Positions 2 through 57,600 of a stretch of 64,000 nucleotides of DNA are shown in pieces. The translations under genes and the position numbers were made by a program. The stretch's first letter is position 1, and the number at the start of each line of letters is the position of its first letter. Below the pieces are notes generated by a model. That model saw nothing but the letters and a program-made list of their open reading frames with translations, searched no databases and was not told the origin of the DNA. This DNA is from Diprion similis (Eukaryota > Arthropoda > Insecta > Hymenoptera > Diprionidae), in contig NC_060112.1 in assembly GCF_021155765.1 (NCBI RefSeq), positions 14,880,001-14,944,000 of the forward strand, given 5' to 3'.

Positions 2-3000
2 GGTAAGCAGCCGAGCACAGTGGAGACCGGTCTCTTCGGATCATCCGATAATTCTGGGGAAGATTTGAGCGCTGGTGAGCCCAGTTTCACAGGGTCTTCA
101 GGAGGTAACCAAGACGCTTTTGCATCAAACGGGTATTTGCCTCCATTCGGAAGTGAGCCCAGCAGTAACGTGCCAGCATTCGCTAAGCCACCGCCAATAC
201 CAAAGGAAGGAGGGCAAAGTGGGTATTCCTTAGTCCGGTCTCAGTTCTGATCATAATCGGAATATCCCAAGTCTGACTTTAGTTACACGATGAAATTTGG
301 TCTGTTCGAATTTCAGTTAGACCCCTCAATGCAGACCCCATCGTCAAAGTTCCCATTCCAAGACCCTTGGAATTCGCACCAGTCACAGTACAGGTCGGAT
401 GTGCTGCCGCACTTATTTGCGTGGAAGAACAATATTGTACCCTAGAGGGAGTGATTAGCCCACAACCGGTGACGTTGACCAAACAACAGATCGAAAGACG
501 AGCTCCTCTTAGCGTGAGTTTTATACAGTATTTTTTTATAGGTATATTATACTTGAGAAACTATATCCACTGTCCTAGATTTAAACTTCTTGTTTTGGTT
601 CATGTTTCATAGCTCTCTGTACGAAACGTTTTGATTATGCGTTAATAAAATTCTATGTATATTGCGTTTTACAGTCGTGCAGAAACGCGGATAATGGCGT
701 TATCGGAAAGTGTTGCCGTGATCCGAACTACGTTGATCCCTGGCCAACGGGTAACCTTCCCGCAAATTACTCTGGAGGTTTTGACGAACAAGGTTTCCCA
801 ACGGTTTGGAACATTACTAAGACTCGCCCTCCTAAGAAGCAGCCGCCTCCAACCAAGGGTGCTTCCATTCAGCCTACCAAAACTGTTGGCTTACCTCCAA
901 CCAAGGGTACCTTCTTTCAACCCACCAAAACTGTTAGACGGCCTCCAAGTAGGGGTAGTTTTGTTCAGCCCACCCAAAATGTCGATGTAATTCCTTCACC
1001 TTCCCAACAAGACGTCAGTGGAGCTCCACCACTCAAACAGCTTAACACTCCAACTAGACAGTTTATTTTTTCAAATCCATTTGGACAAACCGATAATCCA
1101 AATCCATTTCAACCACCCGATTTTTCAAGTATAATTAAAAATATTACCACCGCCATCGGCGGATTCGGCCAGCAATTTTTCCCCACGCAGACTCCCAGCG
1201 CAGCTCCTGTCTCACCTCCATCAAAAAATTATTTTGCATCCGATTCCAACGATAGCCCTACAATAATTGCTCCGCACACCCCAGGAGCTCAGTGCGGTTT
1301 GAGAAATACAGTAAGTGCTTCCAAATGCAATTAGAAGTTTAGGGTTGAATTAGTTAACCTTATTCTGTGCTATTTTCACTAGGTTAAAGTCTTTGCAATA
1401 AGCTTTTGACATTACGGAATTGCTTTTCCTTCAATCCAGTTGATATCTGTTCAGATTTTAACAGATTTTCGATATTTTTGGTATAATTTTTTTTTCTCGA
1501 GTACAGTTAAACGTCATGCTGATTTCATATCAAAGTCTCTTCCATTTTCAATAGTCATTGGTAGCTCTCGTTCGTCAACGTTGACTAATGTTATTTTCAA
1601 CTTTAAAAAAGGTTGAACGCCCAAGCTATCTGGACAGAGATGACGTCGCCTTTGGTGAGATACCATGGCAAGCAATGATTTTGTCAACCACGGATCGTAA
1701 GCTTCTGTGTTCTGGCGCGATCGTATCTCCCAACGTAGTCTTGACAGCCGCTCACTGCGTCTACGGGTGAGCATAATTTTCATCCAACGGTCTTCGCGAT
1801 CAACAATTATTTTGACAGCATTATTTCTAAATAGTGAAATTAACAATTTTTAGTAAATTTATTAGACTGCGACAGACTGAATCGTTTCGTTGGCACTGAA
1901 TAACAATTTTTTAAAATTACCATACGAATGTCTTTTTTGATCCTGATGCATTCGCAATATCAATAAATTGACGAAGCATCTTTAGTAACGTAATTGACAT
2001 GAGAATCTAACACGGCGCATAATTCATGCGTGTGCTATGTTGAAATAACTTTGATATCGTTGCAAATGTTGAAGGATTATCCTCATTTCAAAGTTTCTCA
2101 AAAGTCGTATTATCGCACATGTGAAACTTTAGGCACATACCGACGGATGAACAACCGAAATATTCAAATTAGACCATGGTTTGAAATGGTTTCTGACGGT
2201 ACTGACATTTTTTTATGACAGATTGAGGCCTGAAGAAGTCTCAATAAAATCCGGTGAATGGAAATTGGGGTCCGAAATCCAACAGGAGGAGCCGCTCCCC
2301 TTCGAGATCGTAAAAGTTCAGAACATCGTATCGCACCCAGGTTATAGCACAGGTTCTTCAAGTCACGACCTTGCCATGCTCTTCCTTGTACATCCCATGC
2401 ATCTAGAACAGCACGTTGATACTATTTGCCTGGGTAACATTCCCCAGCCTACGATTGGCAGAAAATGTATCGCTACGGGATGGGGAAAGGTCGTTCTTCA
2501 AGGTATGTCAAAGACTGTCTATAACCATCTTCACCGTTTATTTGTGGCACTTTTGTTACGGACGTGATGAGCACAATCGATCGGTTCATTTTTTAGTACA
2601 TGCGGCTGGTTCCTTGATGCACGGTATTGACGTTGATATAGTACCTCAGGATGAGTGCAGGCAACGCGTCCAGGGCGCTGAATCCCCCGTAGAAATCGAC
2701 AACACCTTGACTTGCGTGAAGGCTCATAAGGAGAGGAACAACATGTGCCAAGTAGATGTTGGTGGCCCATTGGCTTGCGACCGTGGAGACGGTATCTACG
2801 AGCTTACCGGGGTTTACAGCTACGACACCGGATGTTTGCCCACCAATCAGGTAAGATTTTCAATTCTGAATAATCTTCCAAGTTCCATCAGCTTCTAATT
2901 TTCATGATTCGGTTAGGATTTGCATTAGAATTTCTGATTGGTTCTTATTGTTTCGATTTGCAGGTTGCAACCTATGCTTTAATTGACACGAACTGGGTGA

Positions 3001-3125
3001 AAAAGATGTTGGCTTCCCCACCGTCACCAACTTTTGAACAACAAGTCCAGCAGCCAGCACCAGTTTGTGATTGTCAGAAGAGCTATCTTCCACCATCGCT
3101 CAACCAGTACCTTCCGCCAGTGTAA
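2..3125 (+). CDS. CLIP-domain serine protease homologue, scarface/CLIPA-like (5' end outside window)
   Basis: Spliced coding exons: 2-218, 317-513, 675-1310, 1612-1766, 2222-2502, 2597-2850 and 2964-3125 (TAA). All junctions are GT-AG and keep frame; the 218/317 junction uses a GTGGGT donor and is the least certain. The N-terminal part is rich in Gly, Ser and Pro. A CLIP domain follows, split over exons 317-513 and 675-1310, with six cysteines ending in a CC pair (GKCCRDPNY). A Pro/Thr-rich linker comes next, then a chymotrypsin-fold domain beginning near QCGLRNT. The catalytic His (TAAHC, codon 1753-1755) and Asp (HDLAM, codon 2367-2369) are kept. The GDSGGP serine is replaced: the sequence reads VDVGGPL, with Val at codon 2758-2760. 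The product should therefore be a non-catalytic homologue. Relatives act as cofactors in melanisation or, for Drosophila scarface, in epithelial signalling; which role applies here is inference. Family confidence is high, the scarface assignment moderate. Confidence 0.85.
846..989 (+). repeat. 48-bp tandem repeat, three copies, coding
   Basis: Three in-frame copies start at 846, 894 and 942, each with CCTCCAA near its start. They encode 16-residue units of the form PPTKGxxxQPTKTVxx in the linker between the CLIP and protease-like domains of the serine protease homologue. The third copy has diverged most (PPSRG, QPTQN). Confidence 0.85.
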
Positions 3126-4523: not shown

Positions 4524-6473
<1,950 letters not shown>

Positions 6474-9650: not shown

Positions 9651-11720
9651 GGGATGATAATTTTTAACTACTATACTTGCGTCGCGTACACTTTTACACT
9701 TTGAATTTTTACCGTTTTTCAAACTAATCGAAAAAATTTATTACACAATACACCGTCGGCCGTGATGTTTGGAAAAGTAGTCGATAACGATGTGACGATA
9801 CGCTGCATGCACACCGTTATTAGTATGTACATGACTAATAATTGCAGGAGTCTAAGGTTGTAATGTATTTCGATGTGTGACGCGCGATTGCTGATTGCTC
9901 AAGTGCGTTGCAGGTTGACTCGACGATTTATTCAAACTGCAACGTAAGCCAATCGAGAAACGTTCTTACCACTCGCGCACTTACAGTCAATCCTTTTTCA
10001 ATTTATTACAATACACTTAAATTAACATTATATCGTACTTGACAAGTGTTTCTTCGGTATTCCGTTGCAGATTTACAATAATTTTCAATAAAATAAAAAA
10101 TACCGTGTGTGTGTATGTGTGTGATGTAATAATTAAAGTGGTCTTAAATTTCTCTCTACTTGTCACTGCACCGTATGGATTAACGATTACTTATGTATGC
10201 AACCCGTAATATAAATTATCGAAAATATTTTTAACCGGTTTATAACCGTAATTAACTCGTCCTGGAGGATTGGTTGTGTTATAACTCCTCTTCACGCCTA
10301 GACAAGTTGTTTTACAAACGAACGCTATCAATTTAACACCATGATTTTGAATGATTTGAAAATTCTCCGCAAGGTAACTACTCGCTACGTATATCACGCC
10401 GGTTGAAAGTCCAAGCGTAGTAGAAAAATATAGTAAGTTAGTTCGTGCAGGTATGGACAAATAATTTGATTTTCGGAGCAAGAATATCCCGGCAAAATCG
10501 GACCTCGCCTGTATTTCTGTGTGCAATTACACACTCCTCGCAACCTCGCTGCTCATTCAATACAACGAAACGATCCTCGACGTAACGAGGATGACATAAA
10601 TTCTACCTGAGGCAGGCCTGTTGAAGGCAGCCAGCTCAGTTCGAGGCTTTGCATTGGCACCGTTGCCGAGAAAATCCAGAGAGAAAAAAAAAAAAGAAAA
10701 TGTGACCCTCTGCCCGTCGGTGGCCAGCCACACTTAGCATTACGTTAACGTAAAAATAAGCTTACGCCCGGTTTTTACAGCCAAACTAAACTCGGCTATT
10801 CTTATATTCCTATATAGGTTGCGGTGTATACTTACGATCATTATCGAGTCATGGGTTCGTGGAATCAAATCGATTCATAATATACCTGCCCGCATCCATG
10901 ATCGTCGGTCTTTGGCTTTGGATCGTCGAGTAATTGAGTTCCTCGGCCAAATCGTAACGTTGGGAAGTTTCTTCGATTGTATATCCAAGACTTTTGTACA
11001 CGTGTGGTTTCAAAATCAAGATAATACAGTAATCCATAATTAGCAAAGTCGTCTCGCTTGGCTTCCTTCCTTTCTACAGTACACACAGCCGGGTATATTG
11101 TACGTATCTTGAATTTCTTACCTTAATACAGAATATTTCAGCCTAATTTCAGAAAATTCCGATGCGTATAACGAATTTAAGGTTGGCTAAGCATTAGGAA
11201 GCTTCATCGCGAGACACTTTAAATTAACTAATGAACTTTCATGACTATTTCAAATTGTAAAGGCCGCTTCCTGTTGCGTTCAATTAGATACAGGCGACTA
11301 CTCGCCGAGGTACGACTCTCAGCCACACCGATATACTTTCTTCTGCTTCGGTTTCACCTATTTTTACACCATATTTGTATACCCTACTGGTCATTCTATT
11401 TTTTTTTAACCAAATTATTTGGTGCTCGTGTCAACGTACAATTCACGTATAATTATAGTGGTAGTATAATCTGCATAGTTAATTCGGTGTTACATTAGCG
11501 GGCGGATAAAGTTTTGTCATTGAAAATTTTTGTCTCCTCCAAATGTGAATTATAATGTATACTCGTTGATGTTGTTTAATTACTAATTATTTCCACTCCT
11601 AGGTAATAACAATTTCGGTGGACACAACAGATTATCTTACTCCTGTGAAAAAGAAAGAAATTATTGTTAAAATGCTGCAAATTCGTGCACGTCCGTTGTG
11701 GTCGCGAAATCGAGGTGAAT

Positions 11721-12011
11721 GGATTTCAAGGAATTAATGAGTATCAATAAATTCTCTATTCGATACGTTTAATTTTTAGCAATTTTTTCCTCATTTCGTG
11801 GTAACGGTTTTCCGGTTGGAATAACGCTGACGGGTTGATCATCATTGCTTGATGTGCAAAATGATGGATTTCAATGAATTAACGAGAATCAAGAAATTCT
11901 GTATTCGATACGTTTATTCCTCAGCAATTTTTTTCTTACTTCGTGGTAAAGTTTTTCCGGTTTGGAATAACGCTGACGGGTTGATCATCATTGCTTGATG
12001 TGTAAAATGAT
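11721..12011. repeat. 145-bp imperfect tandem duplication
   Basis: Copy 1 (11721-11865) and copy 2 (11866-12011) both begin GGATTTCAA(G/T)GAATTAA. Both contain ATTCGATACGTTTA, TTTCCGGTT and GGAATAACGCTGACGGGTTG, and both end GCTTGATGTGNAAAATGA. They differ by scattered substitutions and small indels. No third copy was seen. The duplication lies about 0.6-0.9 kb upstream of DAGL exon 1a. Confidence 0.92.
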
Positions 12012-12606
12012 CTTACTTCAAGAGCCTGGACGATATCGGGTATCAGGTATTCCACATGGGTCAGTAGTTTCCTGTACAAACCGTGACATGATACATTTCA
12101 CGGTGGATGAACGCTCGTTTGATAATAAATAAATTACATAAACAGTAACCACTAAACCAGTAAAATAATGCGTATAAATAAGTGAGCTGAATTTATCCGT
12201 AACACACGCTGCATTCTTGATTCGCGAGGATCTTGTGAAAAAACAGCTAATACGAATATTTATACTTAAACCAATATGTACGATGCAAAGAGAGAAAAGT
12301 GGCGTGCAAACACAGCTGTATTTTGAAGTACGTAAGAGTGAAATTGTAAAGTAACAATATAATACGCACAAGTGAATATAGATGGAAACTGTGCAACGTG
12401 TTTAATAAAAGTCGAGTGGATCGAGTAAAGGTGCTGCAAAGACACAGATGAGAGACATGGAAGTAGCGACGCGGCTAAAAGGGCTGCCGAATAGCTCGGA
12501 AACATTAACAATTGGCTCAAGATTTGTGCATATTTTGGCAGACTTTAACGAGCTGTTAATAATGAAGTGCGTCGTTAGAACATAGTATTGGAGATCGGTT
12601 GGGATC

Positions 12607-12701
12607 ATGCCAGGTATCGTGGTGTTCCGACGCCGATGGAGCGTCGGCAGTGACGACCTGGTCGTTCCCGGCGTCTTCCTCTTCGTTCTGCATCTCATAT
12701 G
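12607..12701 (+). CDS. inaE: DAGL first coding exon 1a (alpha-like N-terminus)
   Basis: The exon encodes 31 codons plus 2 nt, beginning MPGIVVFRRRWSVGSDDL and running into the first membrane segment, with donor TG|GTAAGT. Joined to 36317 the split codon is Trp (TG|G), giving HLIWVIVLSV. FRRRWSVGSDDLV is, as remembered, identical to the start of vertebrate DAGL-alpha. The 5' UTR and promoter must lie just upstream; no clear TATA box was seen. Confidence 0.93.
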
Positions 12702-15700
12702 GTAAGTTAAATTGTGTTCAATATAGGTGTGCGTATATGAGGTTGCACTTCTTGACCATCTTGATTCTCGCTTACAAAAGCCTTGAGTTTTGAAACTCGT
12801 TTTAATCTTTCTCCGGAGCTGCAGGCGGATCAATTTTTTAAACTTATTATACATGCACGCCTATATTGCAGCCAATTTCTTATGACTACGTAATATAAGG
12901 TTCACATCCTCATTTTTCAAGCCTTTAACGTGCTCTTGACTGAATCTATTGTAATTATCTAATCGAGTACAATGAACATTATACACGATTGCACTCGATT
13001 ATTCAATTGGCATTTCCGTTGAGCTGTTATTCTTATTTGGAAATTATTTTTATCATTCAACATCTCCGTTCCACCCAACGGATGGATAGGTAGACAGTGC
13101 CGCGTAGGATGGAGTTTCAACCAACTTCTGCGTCAGTGGCGGTTTTGTAAAAGCGTATGCACTCTTATACTGCACTTTGTCCAGACTCAAATGAATGTTT
13201 TCCCTTTTTCCTTTACGCGCTTTTTTCTCAGTCAAAGCTCTGCGGCCGTCACGCCGTTACAGTGCTCTTACTTTCTGTCAAATCCAAAAGAAACGCATGC
13301 AGTGTTCGTTTAGAGTGGGCGAGGATTCGTATAGCGTGCGTCGAATCACTGTAATATTTGCATTCGAGCAAATATCACCCGCGTTATCGCATATTATGCA
13401 CTTTCCGTAATACTGTGATCAATTCTCATATTTTCAGTATTCTTCGTCATCTTCCAGATATCGCTCATCTCTTACGTCTTTCCTGTATCGTATCGACGGA
13501 AAACAGGATGAATAAATGTTGTTTTACAGTCCTTTTTGAATTATACTTTTTTAACTTGAAAAGCGGCCTTCGTGGCAACAACAAAATATGGTATATTGCA
13601 ATTATTAACTCGAAATGAATAATTTGAAATTAAAAACTGAGCAAACCCATGGCAAAAAAAATAAAAAATTTGGCCATTGGATTTCAATAATTAAAATTGA
13701 TTGATAAAATCAAGGTCACTTTATTATCGATGGAATAAAATCATATTTCGTATTGTTAAAATCTTCCCGGGCAAGTCATGTCCCCCTGCACTTTTGTGAG
13801 GTCTCACTCCGTGCCGCTAGAATTTTTTCCCTCCATAGATCGATGCCGGCGGTATACCGTCAACGCTTATCAATACGCGTACATATCTTCATCCGTGACA
13901 CGATATACCCAACTAAGGCACCTGCTTGATAAACGTCTATGTCTATGTCTATACTGCCGTCATTGATGTATCGAAGATCAATGTGAGATTGGGGAAAAGT
14001 TTAACAGAAATCTCAGTGTTGACTGTTACCCAAACGCGTTTAAAACCAGATCTTTGGAGCTCACCGCGGTGTTTGAAAATAGCAGACACGCTGCTGGGAC
14101 AGCTGGGTGACACTCCTGAGTAAGCAGAGAATGTGTGTGCAGGTAGCGTTGACAAGTAAATATCGTGTACGCTACGTAAAACTACCGTGTAAACATATAA
14201 AATTGGTGCAGTATACGAGAATAGTCGTTAAACGTTCGGCCATTTCCGAATCATCGTGTTTATACATTGTTAGTCAGAGGTTGAACCGGTCGTTTGATTG
14301 TTGGATGCATTCCTTCGATCATTTACTGCTCTTCTCTCGTGCCTCAATTCTCCATCTCGAAATAGGTTTTATCACGACGCGTCCGAAGGAACCTCATCGT
14401 CGAAACTTCCCAAGCTGGAAGCTGTGCAGTTCGACTCACTCGATATCCGAGGTTCTTCAGCCAGGCCAGAACTCGGGTTTAATTTAAAACAAGATCCAAC
14501 ATACGTACCCACCTCTCAGCACGCTCCCGCACATGCTGTTTTCGGAGTGGAAGGTCAGTGCCACCAGATTAACGGCTCGCCCGACCGCCTCCATGATCTC
14601 TAGTTTCACGCACGTCTCAAGGCTTCTCAGAGCCCCCTTCAACCATCCAATTTTCCAGACGTCCCGGGATCCGGCATTGCTCCGAATTCGTGTAATCAGT
14701 AGCGCATCATCCACACGTTCATTGTCAGTATCGCTAATTTCTGAGAGCATATGCTTATCAGCATGTTAACTTCCGCGTGTACTTTTGTAGCTGCAGCTTT
14801 TGCCGGTATAAGTAAGCACTTCGCTGCTCTGCTGCAGCAGAATTTGAGAGTGTGGGGAAGAGTTGTCTATATCTGGCGTCGGTCGTGCGTATTGGAGGCT
14901 TTTATCGCAGCAGTCGTCACTCGAGGAAAGTTTCACAGTATATGACCCTGTTCGTCCGCGTGGTACTTCAGTGTTGTTGTCATCGGCGAGTATATAGTAC
15001 TGTCTGCTGTCGAAGTTGACTTTTGGCTAAAGAAACAACGTTGCATTAATTAATTCGTCAATTTAATTAATCACATTTTCATATGTACGGTCATTGAAAT
15101 GCCCAGTTTAATCGCTTTTGGAAGACGATGGAGAATCGGAAGCGACGATCTCTGGATTCCTGGATTCAATTTGGCCGGTCTTCATATTCTCATGTGAGTG
15201 GTCAATTGATACTTTGTAACGATACATCGATCGTTATGTCCTAATCGATTCCGCTTATTATATGTTTATCCTTCAATTTCGTCAGCTTCCGTGAGGATTT
15301 CAGCTAGTCATTTAAATTTTGTGCACAGATTTACCTACCGGTATGATTGCTTCCGGAACTGATTTCACTCCAGAATTACTCGAAAATTGAATCTAACCTG
15401 TATGAATCTACCTAAATGTAGACGGGAGACTTTTTTCACCGTCGGAATTAGATTGTCTTTAATGCGAACCTGCAGGCACATTTGTGTTATAATGTTATAT
15501 AGACTCCGTTACGTCTCCGTTACGTCTTCGTCCGCCGTTGTGTATCAAAATCATTCAGCATGATGCATAATTCATATATTATACCCGCCTAGTCAAACAG
15601 CGCCGATATCACGTATGTAATAACTTTCTGGCCATTAATATTTATAACATTGAAGACGTCTCTGTTTTCGGGTAAAACCTTTCCCAAAGGTTCACTCCCA

Positions 15701-33900: not shown

Positions 33901-36900
33901 ATCTGGTATAAATAGCCGTTTCTTTTAATCGCGTTGGCTTAAAAGCTTGAATTTTTTACGTCTTCAAGGGACCGTAGACTTTAGTATTTAATGTTAATTT
34001 CAATTTGATATCTCTACCCGTTTTTGAGAAAAAGGGTCTTGACAGATACACAGGCAGATAAACGGACAACAAAGTCATCCTATAAGGGTTCCGTTTTTTC
34101 TTTTTGAGCTACGGAACCCTAAAAACGAAGAGAGAAAGCGGGATTCCAAAAATAAACTGCTCCATTATCTCCAGCCCTTAAGGTTCAAGTGAATCCTTGG
34201 CTAGCTAAGAATGGTTCAACAAAAATTTAAGAGCTTGCTGGGAAAATGGGCGGGAACTAAATATGTAGCTCTTGAAGTAAAGAGCTCGTCTGTGTACTGC
34301 GGGGGAACGAAAGTTCGTGAAGGCAATTTGCGACCACTTGTATGTAAGGTATTTTAGCTCTCAGCAGAATTGATTTATTTACCTACTTGTGATACGTATT
34401 TGTCATTGTTAAACAGTTGAAACTGTTGATTAGATGAAAATAAAGTCCTTTCACAGTTTCCAAAGAGGGGACTTTTCGATAACCGGACCGTCAATTTTTT
34501 GTTTTCTCGCTGCGAATGTGTAGTTGCATAATATTTGTGTAAATTTAACTTTCAATGAAATCTAAACATACCGATTATTCAAAGTTTCTCCCACCCTATT
34601 CCGCTTTAATGTTTCAAAACCCTCTTACAACAATTTCTAGTATCAAACCTTACATTACGGACTTCTATTTAATCACACTCACTCAAACGCGTTATTAGAG
34701 GACTTGCATTGCATGTGAACATCTTCAATTGTTCAAACTGGGTCAGCTCACGCTGTAAAAAATGTAAAAATGCCCCTCTCGATATTGTGGCACACCAATC
34801 GTATGATTCTTTGGAAACACAGATCCCTCTAACCAAGTACCGAGGTCTGCAGGACATAAATTTGCAGCTGGATGAAATCAATTACGAAACGAAGAATGGG
34901 GTTTGGATAGTTTCAAATTCACCTTGGTTGGATGCCGATTGAAACCTTGTACACGCCCAACAAGGAACATGTATATACTTGTACAAATTATCAGAAGAAT
35001 ATTTGCTTGAAGCGAATTCAGTGCTGCTCCGCGGTTGACCTCATAACAGGAATCTCGTAAATGTCGCTGTCGGAGGTCTCACGCACGATCGAGCAGAACT
35101 CGCCACAAAATTTGTAGAACATGCTCTACTGGATATTCGATAAACCGTAGACTTCTAGACCTTGTGTGTCGGAAGCTTGTCGACTAGATTGATTCCGCCA
35201 GCGTGCCTCGATACATAACAACGAAGGAAAAGCTCAGTAATTCCCACTGCGGTAAAACGTATATTTCAAATAAAAAAGGGGGGCTGATTCCCGCCTAGAA
35301 ATTTTTTACTTGCGGAACTAAATACCCAACCAATCGACATTTTATTTATAGAGTTTTGTATAGAATAATGTGTTCTACTTCTGATCACCACAAATCTTGC
35401 TTATTTATTTCCCCGTAAACAAAGATGTTGTGCAACTCCGCCCACGCGAATTAATTGTTTTTGAAGATGGGCAGGTCGCACTTGATTGTTCGAAAAAAAG
35501 TTTATCTTCCGCAGACAATCGAGTTAAACAACCTTTGTGGTATATGTATACCGTACAGTTTTATTAATTTTTTGTCAACATATTTTTTCTCGGATTGATC
35601 CAATTCACCGCCAAATGCAGGTTAAAAAAAATGTGGCTGTAAGAAACCAATTTCACCGCGAGCTTCATTTGATAATCATCCGAATAAACCTTTTATTCTA
35701 TTCGACCAAAGTGGTTTCTGCAATTTCATCATACTTCTGATACGATACTAAATTCTGCAGACGTTTTTCCCCCTTGAGAAAGAAATTCCGCATTCCAAGG
35801 GGTGTGGAAGCTGCGCGTTTCTATTCGAGTATCAGAGTTACTCACACAATTTCAATCTATACCACGACATCCTGGAAGGTGTGCATACATGTAGACGTGT
35901 GACGACACATGTCACGACGACCATGGAAACGTTGGCATCGAACTTGCAAGCACTAGTGAACACCTATTGTGGTCGGATTGTACATGCTCTGCGGTATAAT
36001 TAGTGGTCTACACTCTGCATGCAGGCGTATTAACGAGTGTCCGGAACTTGATAACCCTCTAGAACTCACCGGCTGTCACTCAACAAGAATTTTCATTAAC
36101 TTGACTGAATTTGACGTAGCATTATTCTTTCTTCATACAGAAACACCGGTGAAATCGGATTATTTTTCCCATCTTTCTTTTTCTTTTCCTGAAATAAAAA
36201 ACAAACGAATCGCAAATTTTTTTGAGCAAATAAACTGTCTTCTATTTCTAGACACTTGAACCTCGTCGGTGTAAAAAAAGCAAGAGCAACTCTTATCCCC
36301 TTTCGCCTTCCTGCAGGGTCATCGTGCTGAGCGTCCTCTTGGGGGTCCTGGAATGGGACCGCAACGTGAGCTGCGTACGGCTCCTGTGGGAATACGTCCT
36401 CGGATATGTGGTGATCCTCGTCATCTCGATCGTCGTGGAGCTGTCAATCTCCGTCCTCGCGATGAGAGGGAGCATCCTGGACACCGCCCCGAGGGCCCCG
36501 ATGCAGTACTACCTCTACTTTCGCCTGTGTAAGTCACGCTCTTCGTGGTTTGTCATGTAGGAATACGCGGGGAGCGCAGAGGGGGGACGTAGAATGTTGG
36601 TGAAAGGAATGCCTTCGAGAAGCTTTTCATCCGTTTCTCGTCCTCCGTGAATCCGTGCCCTTTGTTGCGTACAATCGCTCCATGAACCTTCGGTAACGCA
36701 GTTATTATGCCCACCTGCGCCTCCCCCGCAAATCGGATTATCCATTAAACCCTAAATGACAAAGTGACATTATCTGACATTTGGCCGATCGATCGGTTCC
36801 TCATGTGTCGGAGCTGAAGCGAGTAATCCGCCCTTAATCGTACTATACTATCGTTCCATTTTCACCGAACCATTGCCGTTTTCATTTCGAGTGTCTCAAA

Positions 36901-39900: not shown

Positions 39901-42900
39901 TATATGACTGAAACAATGGAACGGCGAAAGATAATCTGCCCCTAGATAGGTATATATGTTATACCATTGCGATTAAATCTGGGCGAGGTCTATTGTTTTA
40001 TAACTGACATCGAACGTTCACTCGCCTTCTCATATACACTCTGCAGATCATGGTAAATACAGAATCAAAGGTTTTCGGCACAGGAACAATGCCATCCTGT
40101 ACACCGGAAGCCTTTCGGGATTACAATGTTATGGAAAGGGTAGCTCGCCGTTAGGTATCGTTTATGAATTGCCTCCGGTGCGAGGCTTCCGTTCGTTTAT
40201 ACGGCTTCGACGATTGTGTCGATTAAATTCAACCAGATAGTTCATAAAGTGTAATTTGTATATATATATATATATAGTTTCTGGCATCGGTCAGCTTCTT
40301 CTTATACATATACGTATACTTATGCAAATTATATGTTATATAATTTACAGTGGTGATGATCGTCGAGATGGGATGGCTCTGCGCTGGTATTGCGTGGCTC
40401 GTTAAACACTACAGTACCTGCCCGATTGACCAGGCGAAGGGTTTTATTTTGGGTGAGTTAATATAATTGAAACGCTGCTGGCCCCCAAAATTTTGTTAAA
40501 GAGAAAAAAAAGATAGAAACAATCAAAAAAAAAAAAAAAAAAACACGGTAAATTTTCAACGGCTTATTTCAACATCGGATCAATTATTGCAAAACCTTTT
40601 CCGCGGCTAACGACTACTCTCAATTGAAATCAACTGCTAACTGAATTATGAATGCCTGCAACCAGGACTCGTGATTTCGAACTGGTGCGTGTTGGCCTCT
40701 GTGCTGGTCACGGTTTGGTGCACGTTTGACGCGGCTGGTCGATCCTGGGTCAAAATGAAGAAATATCAGCGGAGTATGAGGGAAGCGGAAACGCGGGGTG
40801 GCGGCAGGCTACACTACAAGCGCAGCGGAAGTAGAAACAGGAATTGGAGACAACGGTAATAACGTGGCTATACGGCATATTCGGGTCCACCGATCCACAT
40901 GACTGTGCAGCTTTTTAAATCTGTCTTGATTAAATGTGCCTTAATTTAATTAATTTCACGTTCTCTTTTTCCATTTTTCTTTTTTCTTTCGTTACGTGCA
41001 GAAAAGTGATACGTGCTTATCAGGATAGTTGGGACAATAGATGCAGGCTGCTGTTCTGCTGCATGGGGAACTCGGACAGGAACAGGGTGAGTTGTGGGTC
41101 GGGCTTAGCGTGTTTTTGGAATGTATTCGGAACGCACTTGGACGTTCGCTTTGGGGCCTATCAAACGTCATGCCTCCAGGATTGTATCTTTTTTGTACGC
41201 AGAACTCATTCGCGGATATCGCCCGGCTGTTGAGTGATTTCTTCAGGGACCTGGACGTTGTGCCGTCGGATGTCGTCGCTGGATTAGTACTGCTGAGAAA
41301 GTTTCAGAAGATCGAGAGGGAGCTGATTGTCAAGCAGAGGAAAAACGACACTTACGAATTTCTTTCCGGAGTCCCAGTCACCCCGAGGACCAAATTCTTA
41401 TCCTTGACCGAAGACGGTGATCTTGACCATTTTCAGGCCGCCATTCATTACATGCACTTCGCTCTTGCGGCCTACGGCTGGCCAATGTTCCTCATAACTC
41501 ATTCCACTGGTTTGTGTCAACTCTGCACCAGGTAAGGCGAAGCGTAATTTTTATCGCATTAAAATTAAACTAGAATGGAACATGAAGAATTGCGACTTTG
41601 CTGTCGTTTGACTTTTTGTCGATTGTTAAAATTATCGTGACAACTCGATCGTGAAATTTGTTCAAAGATGTTTCAAGACTCGACAACAATTGTAGAAAAA
41701 AAACTCATCAATTTAAAGTATTTTTGAAAAAGAAAGAATTCTCAAATTTTTTTAGACAAATTCTTACGAAATACACGATTATTTGTTAAAATTGAATCCA
41801 AAGTACAGAGAGAGAGAGAGAAAGAAATTTTATACCTAAAGCATTCTGCGCGCTGGTCTCATGTCTGCAAGGTGTTCAACCCTGAGGCGGAACTTGAGGA
41901 TTACAAAAAGAAAGCCTCGTGAGTGTGGTTATTCTCATTTCCCAGATTGAGGTGCGGCTGTTTCCCGTGCAGAGGAAACGATGACGAGGCGACAGTCGTC
42001 GACGACAATTGCTGCCAGTGTAATTACGCGGCACTTAGACGGATGGTGGAAGTTGGCGAGGTGGAAGTCATCTACGCGACTTACCACGTCGACGTTGGAG
42101 AAACGCCGTTCTTCGTTGCTTTGGATTACACGAGGAAAAAGGTACGAAGACACCGGAACGCGAAACGTGTTCCGCTTTAGGATCATTTCACCACTGGAAT
42201 AGACACCGTTCGTATTACCTAGAAAAACTCCTTTTGACAATGGCTGATTCATGCCTAGGTGGTGGTTAGTATTCGTGGTACTCTCAGCATGAAGGACGTG
42301 TTAACCGACTTGAACGCCGAGGCGGAGGTACTTCCGTTATCACCACCCAAGGAAGACTGGTTGGGACACAAAGGGATGGTCCAAGCGGCCGAGTATATTC
42401 GAAAGAAGCTGCGGGAGGAAGGGATCATCGCTAGAGCATTGGCCAAAGTCAGTTGTTTTCATAAACCGTTTAACAACCTTACTTTATATCACATGATCTT
42501 CATTCCGTAAATTATTCTTCTTCTTCTTATCCAACATACACACACAGGGTGTAAAGTGGAGGCACATTAGAAGCAACGTCTGCAGAGCTGGTGGAATCAG
42601 CAAGCTTTAATTATCGCGACGTAAAAAGACTGATGAAATTTCTCAGCGTCTTCCAGGTGATAAATTTAACAATTTTCTCACTCCCGCAGGATCCCGCAAG
42701 AGGAACGCATCAGTTCGGGTTGACATTAGTCGGCCATTCGTTGGGTGCTGGCACCGCAGCGATTCTCGCAATTTTATTGAGGCAGGAATATCAGGATCTG
42801 TTATGTTTCTCCTTCGCTCCGCCCGGCGGCCTCCTGAGCATGCCTGCCCAGCAGTATACCCAAGAATTTATCACATCCGTCGTTGTCGGTAAGGACGTCG

Positions 42901-45900
42901 TTCCGAGAATAGGACTCAGACAAATGGAAAGCCTTCGTGCGGACCTCATTAACGCCATCAAAAGGAGCGTTGACCCGAAGGTAGAGACCCGCAATTAACC
43001 AGCCCTCCGACCCTTTGTCTTTGCCAAAATTTTCTACCTTTACGGTAGACGGGAGAGAGAATCTCGTGTCTTCCCAACTTTTCGACTTTGTAGCGCAGGA
43101 TCATTCACCCTGACTTGGGTTGTTCCTCTTTCAGTGGAAAACGATCGCATGCTCGGTGATGTGCTGCGGATGCGGTTCGACGCCGACTTCAGCGGCGAAC
43201 CTGGAGGCTGGTGGCTGCATCAGTGAGTACCAGAGGGACAAGGATCAAGCAAGATCTCAAACGGTAGTTCCGAGTGACTCGAGGATCGCGCTGACGCTTC
43301 ACAGACCGCTGTATCCTCCAGGAAGGATAATTCACGTGGTGCGACATCATACTAACAAGAACGAGTGAGTCTGCAATTTCTACTCCGCGCGGCGAATTGT
43401 ATTGTACATTTACATGAGAAAAAAAAATTTATACTTGTCAGGAAAATTTTGCTACCCCAAGGCGTGTGTTGGAGGCGGCTTGTTGTTTGCTCAATTACCC
43501 TGCAAAAGTTTTGGATTGAAAGTATGTTTCCCTTGTTTGCGGGGAAAAGTTGATTGCTTGACAAACTTTAGACTTTCAGTGGAATTGACTTCCGCTGGAA
43601 TTCTACAAATCTTTTTCGAATACTGAATTCACGCTTTCGGTGCAAACTTCCTCTTCTCATGTCTGGATAAAAGTGCATATACAAATAATAAATAAGAAAG
43701 AAAGACACGCCAGCATGTTGATACTAACGCCAATTAACCTGACACATTTCTATTTATAGGCAAAAGTATGAGTCCCGTTGGAGGTATGTTTATCACGATT
43801 AAATATAGTACAACTACTGTTCCAGAAATTATCATATTCTAGGGATTATGCATCTTGGGGACGCTCGCAGCATGCAACCATGGGCCTTATTAATATTAGT
43901 TATATCTATTCACGCGTGTTGTACCAATGTACTGCAATATTTTCCTCTTTACAATCCACGCCCCCCTCCTCCACCCACCCCTCCTGCCGCCGTGTTTGTC
44001 TTCAACCCCATCCATACGAAGTATTGTATTAGTCATGAAAGGCCTTTATAGGATGAGTTACGTGGAAGACTAGGAACCCTTGAAACTTTCAAGTTTTCGA
44101 TTTCAATCTCTTTCGTTGTTCAAATACCTTATTGTTAATATCGTTTGGGGTCGGTATCAAAGTGAAGAATTTCAACGGTTGAACAACCGCTAACTTATGC
44201 TGCCTTCATATCGCGTCATTGGACTTTTGCTCACATGATCCGTACGCTAAACTTTGAGATGATCCAAATGTCTTTTGAACTGGCACCTGCTAGTAATATA
44301 CGCACATTTTCGTCAAATATTTTCTCGCATCATTGATTCGAGAAGCATATGGAATCTGACATGAGTCCAATAACTAGATTCGTGTATGGAAATATCGTCA
44401 GCATAGTCTCAGATGATTTTGTTTGTTTTTTTCATTTCTTACTACTATTATTAGAATAATGCATTTGAAGCAAAATTCTTTTTCTCTGGTCTGAATTTCC
44501 TTACCGATTTCCATAAACGGTTATACATCACAACTGCGGTAACCATAAAAAAAAACCTAACAATTTGCATACAGAATAGCCGTAGAACTTTTTTTAAGAA
44601 GGTGAATGAATCTGATATTTAAATGTATATGAAGCATGTTAGAAATTCAGCGGAGTTATTAATTTTTCATACATGCTAATGCACATTTATTCGCGGTCGG
44701 AGTATTAACATTACTGAAATGCAGCGTATATTAAATATCTCCAAGGATTCCTGGTCCCCCGTAAATAGCGATTTAGTTATTATTCCCAACACTGCATGAT
44801 GGAGTAATGAGTCCGTATAGGTTGCTATAATTGACAATGTATCGTGTGTCCGTTTTAATTTTACGACTTTCAATCTTACCTACACCACCCTTGCATAGCT
44901 TCTACACAGTGGATATCGTGGAAGTCTGTCTCTTCTAATACTGTCGTCCGATTATGACGCCTCCTTCTATCTATCCCAACACAGTGCTGTCCAATACACC
45001 AACAATAATTTTTTCACACCGAGGAACATGCTCTGCGTTTTAAAATTACAGGCAAGTCCTGAGGAAGCGTGAGCCCGTCTATCAGGCCCTCTGGGCTGGG
45101 CCCTGCGACTTTGACGAGGTTTTGATCAGTCCGGTTATGATCCAGGACCACATGCCGGACACGATGTTGAACGCCTTGAACAAGGTAAGCCTAGAGAGCA
45201 ACGGTTCTTCCCTCGTTGTTACCGGTCAGCCGAGAAGAAGGTCGGTCAGTAGGAGTTCATCGGTGAAGCCAGGGTTATACGAGCCCCTCGAGGATAGCAT
45301 TGACGCTCCGGATATCGCCGGGAAAGTTATTCACAAAGACGCGGACCCGATTCCCTCCAGTATCTCAGGGGATAGCCCGACATTCGGCGAACCGGAATAT
45401 CCCCGGACTTCCGTGGATCTCATTAACGTTTCCGAAGACGATCCGCGTTCCAATCGCATAGCGATCATTGCCGACGTCGAGATAGTTTGATTATGCATAG
45501 TCTCTGACAAATTCGAGGTTCCCTCGTCTTTGGTATATTTTTTTTTTCTCACTTGCAATTCGAACCGTTCATTTTTATTTATAAACAACATTTTTTTTAT
45601 CATTATAGTTAGTTAATTTTGGGGGGGGGGGGGGGGGGAGATTACACGTACAAAGGAAATGCGTTACATATGTTACACTGACACGAGCTCGAATTAAAGA
45701 CGATCCATCGCATAAGTATTCGAATTACACGTGAGCGCTTTAGGTATACTTGCCACATAATTACCTATACTGTGCACAGTAGAATTACGCAATATGATCC
45801 AAGGATTTGTTAGGTGAATTTTATTTTCAATTTGGACTCTGACTCCTACTGTGATTGTTCTATTATAATTATTACTGTAATTGTGTCTTTCTTAAACTCT

Positions 45901-51300: not shown

Positions 51301-53239
51301 TCGAGAGGACTGCGCTGGGAATACGTCGGTGCTGCTGATAGGAGAACGAACGAGGGAAAATTGTAAGAACCGGAAGCTCCGTTATACCCGAAATCTCGAG
51401 GCAGCAGGGATCGAGGCGGTCCCGCATCCCCGTATAAACTACAAACTGCACCCGCACTTACAATTAGGCTAGAATCATCCTTCGTGCACGCAGTTTAACA
51501 CGCCTTTGGCGAATGATCTTCGCACGCTTGCGTTACACATTTCTTCTTTTTTTCTCTTATTTTTCTGTCGAATCACCATCGTGCGTATAATGAGTCGAGA
51601 TTTCTTAGCAACCTTCTTACCGTTCGCCCTGCAATCCTGAGTACTCATCTCGCGTAACCTTCGACCGAACTAACACTTGTTTCTACAGATCCCGAAACTT
51701 GGGAGAGTGGGACAATATTCGAGCTTTGGCGCCCTTGGCCACGCCGGAAACTTTGTCCGAAGCTTCGAGCGATCCTCCGTCCCCTGTTCCTCCCCCGCGA
51801 CCGATGAGGCGGACACCTAAGATTCCTGGGAACTTATCCACCGCCGCTGACGACCTCAAGAATAATCTACACTTTGCGATGTTGTCCGCGAAGAATTACT
51901 TCCTCAAAGAGGAAACTAACGGCAGTCATAGCAGTGGAAATAGCGAGGCGAGCTACGAGAGCGCCAAAAGTCTTGGCGCCGGACTTCCGCCTCCGGTACC
52001 GAGGAGAAGAGACTCGGTCATTGTTAGGAGGTATAATTGCAATTAGACATTGCCGTTATTGTTACTTTTTTTGGTACTTCAATACACTTCTTGGTATTAT
52101 ACTGGTATCGTGACTCGCGGTGTGTAAGTGAAATAAAATTGGAATAGATATGACTTTCTGGGGTGAATTTACATAGCTGCAGGTGTATAGTTTAATTCGC
52201 AAAGAATGCAGAAATCAGCGAGAATAATAACTTGACGCGAGAAATAGCGGTTATATGTAGTTTACTTCAAAAACGTTCGATCTGAAAATTATATACCTCT
52301 GTACAAAATCATCAAATTGTCGCTAATGTTGATTCGGAGAACACAAGATTCATTCTTTCCTGTTTGAATTGAAATTCTATACGTAACAAACAAGTAATAG
52401 GTGAAACATGTTAAATTTTTAACACTAAGAAACGGCGGGTTCTAGTTGATGTAGAATTGGGTAACAATACATTAAAACGTACACGCATACAATGCATTAT
52501 ATAAATAGATATAATTTCTTCGAGTTGGTCGGGAAGTGTTCGGTTAAAACGCACGTGTGGCCTTATCTCAAAAGGCTTGAAACTAGCAACTGTAGAGTTC
52601 ATTCACGCGACAGAAATCGGTACTTACTATAGGTACTCACGAATGTTGTATCTTAATGTTGCAACGGAGCAAAAAAAAAAAAATATTTCTCTTTTGCCAG
52701 AGAACATAGAATTTGTACTGCAGCCTGCTGCAGGGACGATATTTCTGAAAATTCGTCCTCGCCATCCTCGAGAATATCTCACACTTCGCACAGGGTCCAA
52801 GACGACTTCACCAAGGAAGAACACGACACAAACGGATCGAGTTTGGACTTCTACGAAGCACAGGTAAGATTCCAAATATCGTACATCGTAATATCAAATT
52901 ACAGAACGTTGAACTTCTCAGTTCTTGGCTGTAACTAGTTTCTACGTGTGATAATTATAGGATTCGATCGGCCAACGGGAAAGCAGCAACGAAGTCTTTC
53001 TGAGTGTCCGAAGTTCCCCGGAGTGCAAGGGTCTGATGACGCCGGCGATCGACCTGGGGGTCGAATGGAAACGGAAACTTGATCCTCCCAAACTCGGCGG
53101 AGACGCCTCTCTGCCCCTTCTTCACGGGCTGTCGCCAACGCCTCCACACGCGCAGCACAATTCGCCTTTCTTCAACGCGAAACGAAAGAAGTACGTTTAT
53201 CCGATCACGATGGTCGGCAGGGGTGAAAGTAGTGTATAG
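12607..53239 (+). CDS. inaE: sn1-specific diacylglycerol lipase, DAGL-alpha / inaE type (full gene span, alternative isoforms)
   Basis: This multipass lipase hydrolyses diacylglycerol to 2-monoacylglycerol (2-AG in animals) at the plasma membrane; in flies inaE supports phototransduction. Coding exons: 12607-12701 or 15099-15193 (alternative first exons), 36317-36528, 40351-40452, 40666-40855, 41002-41086, 41203-41531, 41946-42141, 42259-42447, 42690-42980, 43135-43364, 43760-43783, 45052-45184, 51025-51362, 51689-52030, 52794-52863 and 52961-53239. These give 1034 codons plus stop, and every phase matches. Four N-terminal membrane segments precede the lipase domain. The catalytic triad is Ser483 (VGHSLGAG), Asp535 (VGKDVVPRIG) and His630 (GRIIHVV). 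An alternative short form ends at 45490 (793 aa). The first intron is 23.6 kb from exon 1a. Function is secure; assignment as the insect DAGL-alpha orthologue rests on remembered sequence similarity. Confidence 0.95.
12702..15098. other. Intron segment between DAGL exons 1a and 1b
   Basis: This is non-coding as far as can be seen. Several open frames of 60-126 codons occur on the plus strand around 14100-14770, but they overlap each other in different frames and lack domain signatures. The segment presumably carries regulatory sequence for exon 1b. Confidence 0.5.
14990..15098 (+). promoter_or_regulatory. Candidate TATA-containing promoter of DAGL exon 1b
   Basis: TATATAG at 14991-14997 lies about 100 bp upstream of the exon 1b ATG. 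That leaves room for a start site near 15020 and a 5' UTR of about 75 nt without an intron. The spacing is suitable, but this is inferred from one motif. Confidence 0.3.
15099..15193 (+). CDS. inaE: DAGL alternative first coding exon 1b
   Basis: A second ATG exon lies 2.4 kb downstream of 1a. It begins MPSLIAFGRRWRIGSDDL and ends in donor AT|GTGAGT. It has the same 95-nt length and the same phase 2 as exon 1a, so it also splices in frame to 36317 (split codon Met). Exons 1a and 1b share 16 of 32 residues, including RRW, GSDDL and PG. Position, length, phase and homology together support a duplicated alternative first exon. Its use in transcripts is not shown by the sequence. Confidence 0.85.
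21959..22010. repeat. Trinucleotide microsatellite (ATC)n grading into (GTC)n
   Basis: About 10 ATC units run directly into CGTCATCGTCGTCGTC. It lies in DAGL intron 1 and is non-coding. Confidence 0.9.
22380..23560. other. CpG-rich block within DAGL intron 1
   Basis: A roughly 1.2-kb stretch is clearly richer in CG dinucleotides than the surrounding intron and includes a CT repeat at about 23265-23290. Several overlapping frames are open on both strands, as expected from base composition, and none shows a domain. It could be an intronic promoter or enhancer. Confidence 0.35.
30247..30284. repeat. 9-bp purine minisatellite (GGAAAAGGA)n
   Basis: About four copies of a 9-bp all-purine unit, GGAAAAGGA, run in tandem. 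It lies in DAGL intron 1. Confidence 0.9.
30480..30532. repeat. 9-bp minisatellite (CCCCGTTTT / CCCCGCTTT)n
   Basis: About six tandem copies of a pyrimidine-rich 9-bp unit drift from CCCCGTTTT to CCCCGCTTT. It sits about 200 bp from the purine minisatellite and has the same period, with the strand asymmetry reversed. Confidence 0.9.
33688..34129. mobile_element. Dispersed non-autonomous element with GGGTTCCGTA inverted ends
   Basis: The left end reads AAACCGGACAAGTGCGAG, then GGACTCGCACC and GAGGGTTCCGTAC. The right end has GGGTTCCGTTTTT followed by TACGGAACCCTAAAAA. AGGGTTCCGTA (33722-33732) and TACGGAACCCT (34110-34120) are perfect 11-bp inverted repeats. An 8-bp direct repeat GAGAGAAA flanks the element (33680-33687 and 34130-34137) and may be a target-site duplication. 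The ends resemble, from memory, a short repeat very common in Lepidoptera and other arthropods. There is no coding capacity. Class (SINE-like or fold-back) is uncertain. Confidence 0.75.
36317..41086 (+). CDS. inaE: DAGL exons 2-5: transmembrane bundle and cytosolic linker
   Basis: Exons 36317-36528, 40351-40452, 40666-40855 and 41002-41086. Membrane segments, after the first one spanning the exon 1/2 junction, are around LGYVVILVISIVVELSISVL, VMIVEMGWLCAGIAWLV and VISNWCVLASVLVTVWCTF. Between segments 2 and 3 is MRGSILDTAPRAPMQYYLY, and between 3 and 4 is the HYSTCP loop, both typical of DAGL-alpha. The end carries a basic stretch and a Cys-rich LLFCCMGN, a plausible palmitoylation site. The four exons join with phases 2, 1, 1, 2 and 0. 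Confidence 0.93.
36529..40350. other. DAGL intron 2 (3.8 kb)
   Basis: No gene was recognised. A 122-codon plus-strand frame at 37458-37826 has no domain signature and is treated as chance. A GA-rich tract lies at about 39361-39415 and a TA repeat at 40259-40276. Confidence 0.6.
41203..45184 (+). CDS. inaE: DAGL exons 6-12: catalytic lipase domain
   Basis: Exons 41203-41531, 41946-42141, 42259-42447, 42690-42980, 43135-43364, 43760-43783 and 45052-45184. Conserved landmarks in order are FFRDLDVVPSDVVAGLVLL, FALAAYGWPMFL, DDNCCQCNYAAL, VDVGETPFFVALDY, VVSIRGTLSMKDVLTDL, DWLGHKGMVQAAEYI, the nucleophile elbow VGHSLGAGTAAI (Ser483), FAPPGGLLS, VGKDVVPRIGL (Asp535) and RPLYPPGRIIHVV (His630), then EVLISPVMIQDHMPD. 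All match DAGL-alpha. The domain is intact. Confidence 0.95.
41532..41945. other. DAGL intron 6 (414 bp)
   Basis: AT-rich with a GA repeat at about 41808-41826. A splice-site-bounded open stretch at 41873-41919 was tested as an exon, but at 47 nt it breaks the frame. Confidence 0.6.
43365..43759. other. DAGL intron 10 (395 bp)
   Basis: AT-rich; contains chance open frames that overlap one another in different registers. Nothing else was recognised before the microexon. Confidence 0.5.
43760..43783 (+). CDS. inaE: DAGL 24-nt microexon (exon 11)
   Basis: It is bounded by TTTATAG| and |GTATGT and enters and leaves in phase 2. Together with neighbouring split codons it encodes EQKYESRWR between HHTNKN and QVLRKREP. 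Because 24 is a multiple of three, skipping it also keeps frame (HHTNKNEQVLRKREP). It lies just after the catalytic-His segment. Support is splice-site quality, phase and composition only. Confidence 0.7.
43784..45051. other. DAGL intron 11 (1.3 kb)
   Basis: AT-rich, apart from a short C-rich stretch around 43970. No gene or repeat was recognised. Confidence 0.5.
45185..45490 (+). CDS. inaE: DAGL alternative short C-terminus (exon 12 extension)
   Basis: If the donor at 45185 (AAG|GTAAGC) is not used, the frame stays open for 101 more codons to a TGA at 45488-45490. The result is a 793-residue isoform. The added tail is Ser/Pro-rich and acidic (SRSSSVKPG, DAPDIAGKVI, SPTFGEPEYP, DLINVSEDDPRS). 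GC content and codon use look coding right to the stop and then drop sharply. Drosophila inaE is known to make a short and a long protein differing at the C-terminus, which fits this arrangement. Confidence 0.75.
   Translation, partial: VSLESNGSSLVVTGQPRRRSVSRSSSVKPGLYEPLEDSIDAPDIAGKVIHKDADPIPSSISGDSPTFGEPEYPRTSVDLINVSEDDPRSNRIAIIADVEIV
45621..45638. repeat. Homopolymer of 18 G
   Basis: An uninterrupted run of 18 G lies 130 nt past the short-isoform stop, within its likely 3' UTR. The exact length could also be a sequencing uncertainty. Confidence 0.85.
48318..48350. repeat. (ATC)n microsatellite
   Basis: About 11 uninterrupted ATC units in DAGL intron 12. Confidence 0.9.
51025..53239 (+). 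CDS. inaE: DAGL exons 13-16: long-isoform C-terminal cytosolic tail
   Basis: Exons 51025-51362, 51689-52030, 52794-52863 and 52961-53239 (TAG) join in phase to exon 12, giving ALNKVITTLGPAKPQRTGTS at the junction. The tail of about 340 residues is disordered: Pro-rich (DPPSPVPPPRPMRRTPKIP, LPPPVPRRR), acidic (EVEIEPEMR) and Ser-rich. It includes stretches that may bind SH3 domains. It ends KYVYPITMVGRGESSV. The vertebrate Homer ligand PPxxF was not found; the closest is PPKLG near the C-terminus. A poly(A) signal follows 89 nt after the stop. Confidence 0.9.
52031..52793. other. DAGL intron 14 (763 bp)
   Basis: AT-rich; a run of A lies near 52670-52683. Nothing else was recognised. Confidence 0.6.
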
Positions 53240-54622: not shown

Positions 54623-57600
54623 ATGCAGTATTTCACTGCATTCGTACTGATCCTTTTGTGGACGGTGAAAAAGCTACAATGTGAGTAAAATTTCATTTCA
54701 AATTAACGCGAAATAAGTCCCTGACGTTTTAAGGTTAACTAAATAAAACTTTATCCCGTGATAATAATATTCTCGCTCCTGAAACATGTTTCATTTTACT
54801 GAATTCTTTTATTTCTTAACTATGCAGTTCATCTAGCATCATTACAATAACAAAATGTGAAAACACTTCTAGGTCTTCGCTCTTTTCAACCTATGCAACT
54901 TTATTCATGTTAGAATGAATTACAAGCTTGCGTCGCCTGGGATTATGTTTCTGTAAACAACACTTGTTGGACTTACGGTCTTCATTCTCTGATCTGGGTC
55001 ATGAGCAGTGCTAATTTATACCGTAATACGATATACCTCAGATAATTGTTTATAACGGACCAGATGGCACAGGCTTCCTCGCCCTTTCCAATTTTATTCA
55101 TTTTCTTGAGAACATTGGATTTTCACACTCTTTCGACTATAGTACATTTTCTTTTGAACCATGCTTTATCAACAAATCTTATGGAGACTGAAAAATGTCT
55201 GCAAAGTGTGAAGTGCTCCACTTTTTAGCTTGGATTATTTTGGAACATTCTCAACCTTGAAAAAGTTTTAATCGGATGTCAAACTTACAAAATTCGTAAA
55301 AAATGTATTATTTAAGAAAATATGTTCTTTATTTAATCATTAGGTTCAGACCGGATGAACAATACCGCAGGACACATAGTGAAGCTGGTTGTATCGCCGA
55401 AACCGATCGAAGATGTGGGAATCAGGCCGATTATTCTTAAGAAAGAATCTGAATCTTTAAATTTGACGTGTCGAATTGTTTATCAAAAAACGGAGAGGAA
55501 TGACATTCCATTACCATATGAAGATCCACTGCCAACTTACATCGTTGACTGGAAAGCTTTGAATTCCAATGATAATCGGTCAGTGAATGTTCCTGATAAT
55601 ATTTATCAGTTAACAACTCTCTTGCAATTTTCTCATTTTTATACAATTCAAACTGCAATTAGGTTCAAACGTGGCCAGAATGAGAACAGCGCTTGGCTCT
55701 GGTTTGAGAGCCTCGCGGAAGCAGATGCTGGAGATTACAGCTGTCATGCCATTTCGTTGAACGCGTCAAGACAGCCTAAGGTGTCTGCGGAGATCCATTT
55801 GTCAGTAAAAAACCGTAAGTGTGGCTTTGATTTCAGACAAATGTAGAAAATTTATCGTCCGGATGTTTTTCCAGAGGTCGGAACATGTGGTACAAACTGG
55901 TTCAGGTGCTACTCGTCCCTTTGTATCAGTCGGCGATATCTGTGCGACGGCATGGCCGACTGCGAGGATGGAGAGGACGAATCAGCCGTCGCTGGCTGCG
56001 GTCCGAAACCATGTTTTGGAAAGATATTCTGTGGGAAACGTTGTATGCCACCTGCTTGGTGTTGTGATCTTGGTAACTGTAACGCAAGCTTGCCAATCGT
56101 TCGTCCGGATCCACCTGGAATTATTTCTACCGACCAGCAGCGGTTCAATGATATGGGATTTCTGCAAACTACCATCTACACTGTCATTGGTGAGGTCAAC
56201 TTCTTTCTGTACTCTGTGCTGTTCTGAATGTAATTTTATGGTGCCTGTTTTGGTCTGAAATTTGATTTTAAAAGTGATTATAGTTTTTATCGACATTTGT
56301 CATCTGATATCATATGATTGTTACTTGCGTTGAATTAATATTTACATTTCAGGTTGCGCAATGGCATTCATGTTTATTGTTACAATACTAGTTATAATGA
56401 TATGTAGAGTTCATATGAAACGTGCTATGAATTCGAGATGTCCGCAACAAGTGAGAAATCCAGGGTCGCGACCACGTCATAGCGTCCCATTGTATGACCT
56501 TGATGTGTACTTAAATAGAACCGCGGATATTAACAACCAAGGAGGTAAGAAAAATTCAACTTTAGAAAATATCTGCATTTATTGCCTAATAAATCCTACC
56601 AAATGTTATATGTTTGTCTAGGGGTCACAGTAACTTATAACATCAACAATGGAGTCCAATTTGTTGGAAGGCCTGTAGAGCCACCACCGTATTCTGAAAT
56701 TGCACCCGTTCCCCCAAGGGAAGGCCCTCCACCTCCGTACGTATCCCGCGAAAATCTGCTTGACGCTCCGATCGTGTCAAACTTGAATTCCAATGAAGTC
56801 CAGCGGGCAAATAGTCATAGTTTAACTACGGAATTTATTAACAACGAAGGTACGGGGTCTCGGATTGCTTGTAATTATCCGAACAATCTTAACTCGACAA
56901 GTGTTCATTGTTTTTCGAGTGGTCAGATACCAGGGCCTCAAACTACACCAGGTTTCAATCGTTTTAACATGAGTTTAATTTGTGATAACACGTCGAATAC
57001 GACATTGAATACTTCCACTAGTACAGCTCTTAATACTAGCAGCAATTCGGACTCTAGTAGTAATGATTCTGTCGGGAATTTTGCTATCTGCAGAAACATA
57101 ACGTCGCATTCGCAAAATTTCGAGCCGGAGTATACAGAAACAGATTCGCTCTTGATAGAAAATCGTCGCGACGTTCAAGCTCAGTGTACAGATCGAATTG
57201 TGCGAAGCTCTGATTACCCTGGTACAATTTTGAATGGTCAAATCACTAACGGTATTCAAGATACGGTTTCAGTTTTGAAGAACACCACAAGCGTAGAGGT
57301 TCCTGCCTTGTTATCTGATAGTCACAGTGGTCTAAATCCTAAAGGAACACTAAACAATATCGGTAATAACTTTGATTCGAAAATGAGTACAAATTTTCCA
57401 GTCAACAAGCGGTACGAATCACAAATATCGAAAAACTTGGAACCAGAATCTTCTTTCTTAGACTCGGAATTGAAAATCTCATGCTCAGGTGAAACTAGGG
57501 TAAGTAAGAATGATAATTCGGTTCAGAAGTCAATTCCAGTTGGGATAAATTCGTTGACCAATCAAGACATGGATTCTACCTTGCAGAGGCTTAGCTCCAA

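Follow-up and report, generated by a model that had tools for sequence, protein, structure and literature searches.

A DAGL-alpha (inaE-type) gene of Diprion similis with two homologous first coding exons and predicted alternative N-termini

Twin first coding exons and the DAGL-alpha gene

Analysis of a 64,000-nucleotide stretch of Diprion similis DNA (NC_060112.1, positions 14,880,001 to 14,944,000; the whole stretch is referred to below as the window) indicated that a DAGL-alpha (inaE-type) gene very probably carries two old, diverged first coding exons, the downstream of which, exon 1b, would serve as an alternative with its own promoter or leader. Exon 1a, the first coding exon of DAGL-alpha (12607..12701, plus strand), encodes the peptide MPGIVVFRRRWSVGSDDLVVPGVFLFVLHLI(W), and exon 1b, the putative alternative first coding exon (15099..15193, plus strand), located 2.5 kb away, encodes MPSLIAFGRRWRIGSDDLWIPGFNLAGLHIL(M). 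Each is 95 nt long, begins with ATG, is open throughout and ends in phase 2 at a 5' splice site (GTAAGT after exon 1a and GTGAGT after exon 1b, the latter donor having T instead of G at -1), forming an in-frame junction to exon 2 at 36317. The lengths, phases and frames given in the preliminary description, as well as its count of 16 shared residues among 32, were all borne out by the sequence. Its view that one DAGL gene has a homologous pair of first coding exons, either of which can be joined to exon 2, is likewise supported, and alternative N-termini derived from exons 1a and 1b are considered very likely. A 95-nt first exon ending in phase 2 is not peculiar to this pair, since a second DAGL gene, described below, has a first exon of the same form.

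Each of the two exons encodes the tail at the N-terminus together with the leading half of membrane helix 1, a helix completed by the shared exon 2 (36317..36528, plus strand). Because the reading frame of exon 1b contains an upstream stop at 15051, and no AG occurs between this stop and the exon 1b ATG, exon 1b can only be a start exon and not an internal one. According to the proposed mechanism, exon 2 at 36317 would be the acceptor both for a transcript beginning upstream of 1a and for one that begins between 1a and 1b or has a separate 5' leader exon, with two transcription starts or two 5' leaders selecting the first coding exon. Both exons would be transcribed, each driven by a separate promoter, and beyond the first 32 residues the two resulting enzymes would be the same. 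The predicted DAGL consists of 785 residues with either exon, the predicted downstream exons being identical.

The remainder of the gene was predicted on the plus strand as exon 3 (40351..40452), exon 4 (40666..40855), exon 5 (41002..41086), exon 6 (41203..41531), exon 7 (41946..42141, where an in-frame acceptor at 41952 is an alternative giving 783 residues), exon 8 (42259..42447, lipase domain), exon 9 (42690..42980, containing the GHSLG catalytic serine motif, at 42732), exon 10 (43135..43364) and exon 11 (45052..45490, with the stop codon and an internal donor after 45184 that could give another tail). The class 3 lipase domain was recovered as PF01764 (E 9.9e-16). Compared with provisional human sequences, used throughout, the catalytic part is identical to DAGLA at 172 of 334 positions and to DAGLB at 124 of 309, with summed tblastn scores of 347 and 233 bits, respectively; the gene is assigned to DAGL-alpha (inaE-type) from these comparisons. 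The 14 matched PDB sequences were other class 3 lipases and feruloyl esterases, with no animal DAGL by name among them, and the Rfam search gave no match. Inside the last coding exon, a good donor (AAG|GTAAGC) at 45184 is followed downstream by an open frame with proline-rich motifs (51609-52046), in which no Pfam match was found; the two together suggest that this gene may have an alternative, longer C-terminal tail.

A second DAGL gene and the affinity of exon 1b

A genome search with the catalytic domain gave five matches, all weak (E 0.0038 to 0.64), which follow the gene order on contig C13 (624931 to 626467, minus strand), and several exons were confirmed in the fetched region at E of 1e-4 or less. 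This locus is a second, compact DAGL gene (C13:624931-627682, minus strand), which had been missed by the lipase-family genome search, a search that was not exhaustive. It has its own first coding exon at C13:627587-627682 with a 95-nt coding part in phase 2 at a GT donor, encoding the peptide MPALKLFGRKWLAATDDLVYPGLFEIFIRIIW, and its likely exon 2 was found as a weak match (E 2.2). An AG following a T-rich run stands just upstream of its ATG, so the 5' leader may be a separate exon. Since its first exon shares 18 of 32 residues with human DAGLB and 12 of 32 with human DAGLA, the second gene is probably DAGL-beta, a label based only on that exon; no confirmation came from the catalytic exons, which have summed tblastn scores of 201 bits against human DAGLA and 161 bits against human DAGLB.

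The existence of this gene bears on the suggestion that exon 1b provides a DAGL-beta-like N-terminus, either captured from a DAGL-beta gene or left over from one. The preliminary description called the 1b N-terminus beta-like, but this was not borne out, exon 1b being nearer to exon 1a (30.8 bits, E 8e-5) than to the first exon of the second DAGL gene (19.1 bits, E 0.57), and that gene possesses an exon 1 of its own. The second gene's first exon is identical to 1b at 13 of 32 residues and to 1a at 14 of 32, and its match with 1a has an E of 0.0016. Against the human sequences, 1b shares 15 of 32 residues with DAGLA and 16 of 32 with DAGLB and thus appears equidistant from the two, while 1a, with 18 of 32, is closer to human DAGLB than 1b is. 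Exon 1b was not found to be nearer to beta than to alpha first exons, the reference beta exon being itself assigned through its similarity to the provisional human DAGLB sequence.

The FG and PGF motifs previously taken as marks of beta are indeed present in exon 1b; nevertheless, at the five diagnostic sites, at which 1a and human DAGLA agree and both beta sequences differ, Gly8 is the only beta residue, three sites (14, 25 and 29) being alpha and one (6) being neither. Apart from Gly8, shared with both beta sequences, a beta origin is favoured by Leu4, found both in 1b and in the second gene's first exon, and by Ile13 and Phe23, which 1b shares with human DAGLB. In the tree test (AU test of five sequences, two of them provisional, over 32 sites, with long-branch effects possible), 1b fitted best when placed on the branch that separates alpha from beta (p-AU 0.91), followed by placements with 1a and with human DAGLA (p-AU 0.19 each); the two placements beside beta fitted worst (p-AU 0.058 and 0.057), although the AU test excludes none of the five. 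A beta origin also draws some support from the second gene itself, which is called beta by its first exon while its catalytic exons score higher with human DAGLA; because those exons score no better with DAGLB, our confidence in twin DAGL-alpha first exons was lowered somewhat and that in a beta origin was raised, the latter nonetheless remaining improbable. Somewhat less doubtful, yet still rather unlikely, is that 1b is a very old DAGL-alpha first exon that branched before the insect-vertebrate split, near the split of alpha and beta, and was kept in this lineage, giving an enzyme form with an altered helix 1 and a distinct location or turnover; the corresponding placement fitted best in the tree test.

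Divergence, constraint and upstream region of the two exons

Exons 1a and 1b encode peptides with 16 identical residues of 32 (16 of 31 when full codons are counted), and their nucleotide identity at codon positions 1, 2 and 3 amounts to 17/31, 26/31 and 12/31, respectively, the difference between positions 2 and 3 having a Fisher p of 5.5e-4. Five of the 31 full codons are identical, eleven differ silently and fifteen differ with a change of residue; the NG86 estimates are dN 0.39 and dS 3.15 (saturated), giving a dN/dS of about 0.12. Within the window the two exons match each other at E 2e-8 to 3e-8. When the 32-residue 1b peptide was searched against the genome with E up to 10, the only places retrieved were 1b itself, 1a and the second DAGL gene's first exon, and each of the three first-exon peptides led to these same three places and to none else at that threshold. 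The likeness of 1a and 1b is more than chance. The near-saturated third positions imply that the duplication would be of some age, and the pattern fits an old duplicate probably kept by selection.

The 600-base upstream flanks of 1a and 1b are no more alike than shuffled sequences, since they score 21 whereas 30 shuffles averaged 20 and reached 25 at most; for the downstream flanks the score was 22 (unshuffled). When 12 exon peptides were searched against the window at a cut-off of E 1, every non-self match beyond that between 1a and 1b had an E of at least 0.31, and no second copy of exon 2 or of other DAGL exons was found in the window above the chance level, the best match in the reversed window having an E of 0.089.

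The upstream regions were scanned for insect promoter motifs. Above 1a there is a TATA match at 12173, above 1b a loose TATA match at 14807, and the initiator TCAKTY had no match above either exon. Six DPE-like matches occur in the 0.7 kb above 1b, where the intron rate of 4.2 per kb predicts about three, so that the motifs above 1b are regarded as uninformative. A 4-codon uORF (15083..15097, plus strand) ends one base before the exon 1b ATG; it is relevant only if the leader includes it, in which case it could lower translation of the 1b form. Upstream of exon 1a, a repeat is present in two copies (11719-12011) with a spacing of about 145 nt, which are 81-86% identical over the reported stretches.

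The lack of a clear core promoter above 1b would suit a decayed duplicate, a relic exon that looks coding yet is unused, as would its changes at conserved positions: of the 12 residues that do not vary among four other first exons (two of these being provisional sequences), exon 1b keeps nine and departs from three (V19W, F24N and W32M). Decay is hard to reconcile, however, with third positions near saturation while 16 of 31 residues, the ATG, the frame and the donor are all kept. In simulations of copies of 1a evolving without constraint, 16 identical residues were reached in 111 of 20000 trials when identity was about that observed and in 0 of 20000 when divergence was greater; when an ATG, an open frame and a GT donor were also required, the numbers were 57 of 100000 at the observed identity and 0 of 100000 at greater divergence. 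We rate disuse of the exon slightly below a beta origin, and as unlikely.

Least credible of all is that exon 1b begins a separate gene instead of being spliced to DAGL exon 2: the joining is predicted from DNA, but the 1b peptide is a DAGL N-terminus ending in mid-helix 1 and needs a DAGL exon 2 for its completion, no further exon-peptide match in the window rises above chance, and the second DAGL gene, which sits on a different contig, has an exon 1 of its own. Moreover, a genome search with exon 1b plus exon 2 as query returned exon 2 at 36317 as the sole strong match, together with three weak ones (E 0.69 to 6.2), in a search that was not exhaustive, having missed the second DAGL gene including its likely exon 2; the acceptor at 36317 thus appears as the only option seen for exon 1b.

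The 1b N-terminus, related systems and neighbouring genes

Under the preferred reading of 1b as an alternative DAGL-alpha first exon, the two enzyme forms may not behave alike in the membrane. Exon 1b has Asn at position 24, at the start of helix 1, and on one insertion scale its best 21-residue stretch scores -0.17 against -3.61 for 1a, making 1b the less hydrophobic; on the Kyte-Doolittle scale the two helices are nearly equal (2.70 for 1b and 2.85 for 1a). A difference of the 1b form in insertion, packing or location may be inferred from these values, and the form could also differ in regulation. Production of both forms would place an enzyme of 2-monoacylglycerol signalling under two promoters and provide it with two N-terminal membrane anchors, and studies restricted to the 1a form could overlook some of the output of the DAGL-alpha gene. 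The Drosophila DAGL enzyme is described as required for photoreceptor responses and as influencing lifespan (PMC3433705, PMC4116436).

Exchange of homologous exons lying in tandem is a known kind of alternative splicing and is mostly ancient; one survey counts 236 events in humans, of which 40 are N-terminal, and 154 genes in Drosophila, the fly set being enriched for plasma membrane terms (PMC9741552). The present gene resembles the N-terminal class of this tandem duplicated exon substitution, in which homologous neighbouring exons interchange while the remainder of the protein stays constant; unlike the events of that survey, the alternative use of 1a and 1b is deduced from DNA only, and DAGL, inaE and lipase are absent from its main text (PMC9741552). 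As tandem duplicated exons are defined, 1a and 1b are homologous, have the same phase and can each be joined to the same next exon. The twin arrangement seen here in DAGL is already known from other genes. In Drosophila inaE, the short and long isoforms presumably differ at the C-terminus. The gene inaE (DAGL-alpha) belongs to the same DAGL type as the gene in the window and has multiple isoforms (PA and PD), one short and one long isoform being named, whereas a twin first exon is unmentioned in the available portions of these reports (PMC4116436, PMC3433705). Apis, Anopheles and Tribolium are reported to retain both DAGL-alpha and DAGL-beta genes, and the present genome likewise has two DAGL genes; the accessible part of that work deals with DAGL gene gain and loss, alternative first exons being outside its treatment (PMC6698658). 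Among the matches listed, within a partial coverage of the literature, no twin DAGL first exons were described.

The neighbouring genes were recognized from open frames, with Pfam matches to five of the nine frames scanned, and their extents are a reading of these frames. Upstream of the DAGL-alpha gene, the window contains a trypsin-like protease (585-3125, plus strand) and an NAD-dependent epimerase that reads as GDP-fucose synthase-like (4899-6473, plus strand), both from an open frame and the Pfam scan. Downstream are a vanin-like protein (60378-62972, minus strand), read from an open frame with a CN_hydrolase match below Pfam's cut-off, and, closer to the DAGL-alpha gene, a long-tailed LDL-receptor class A protein (55337-58198, plus strand), identified by open frame and Pfam scan.
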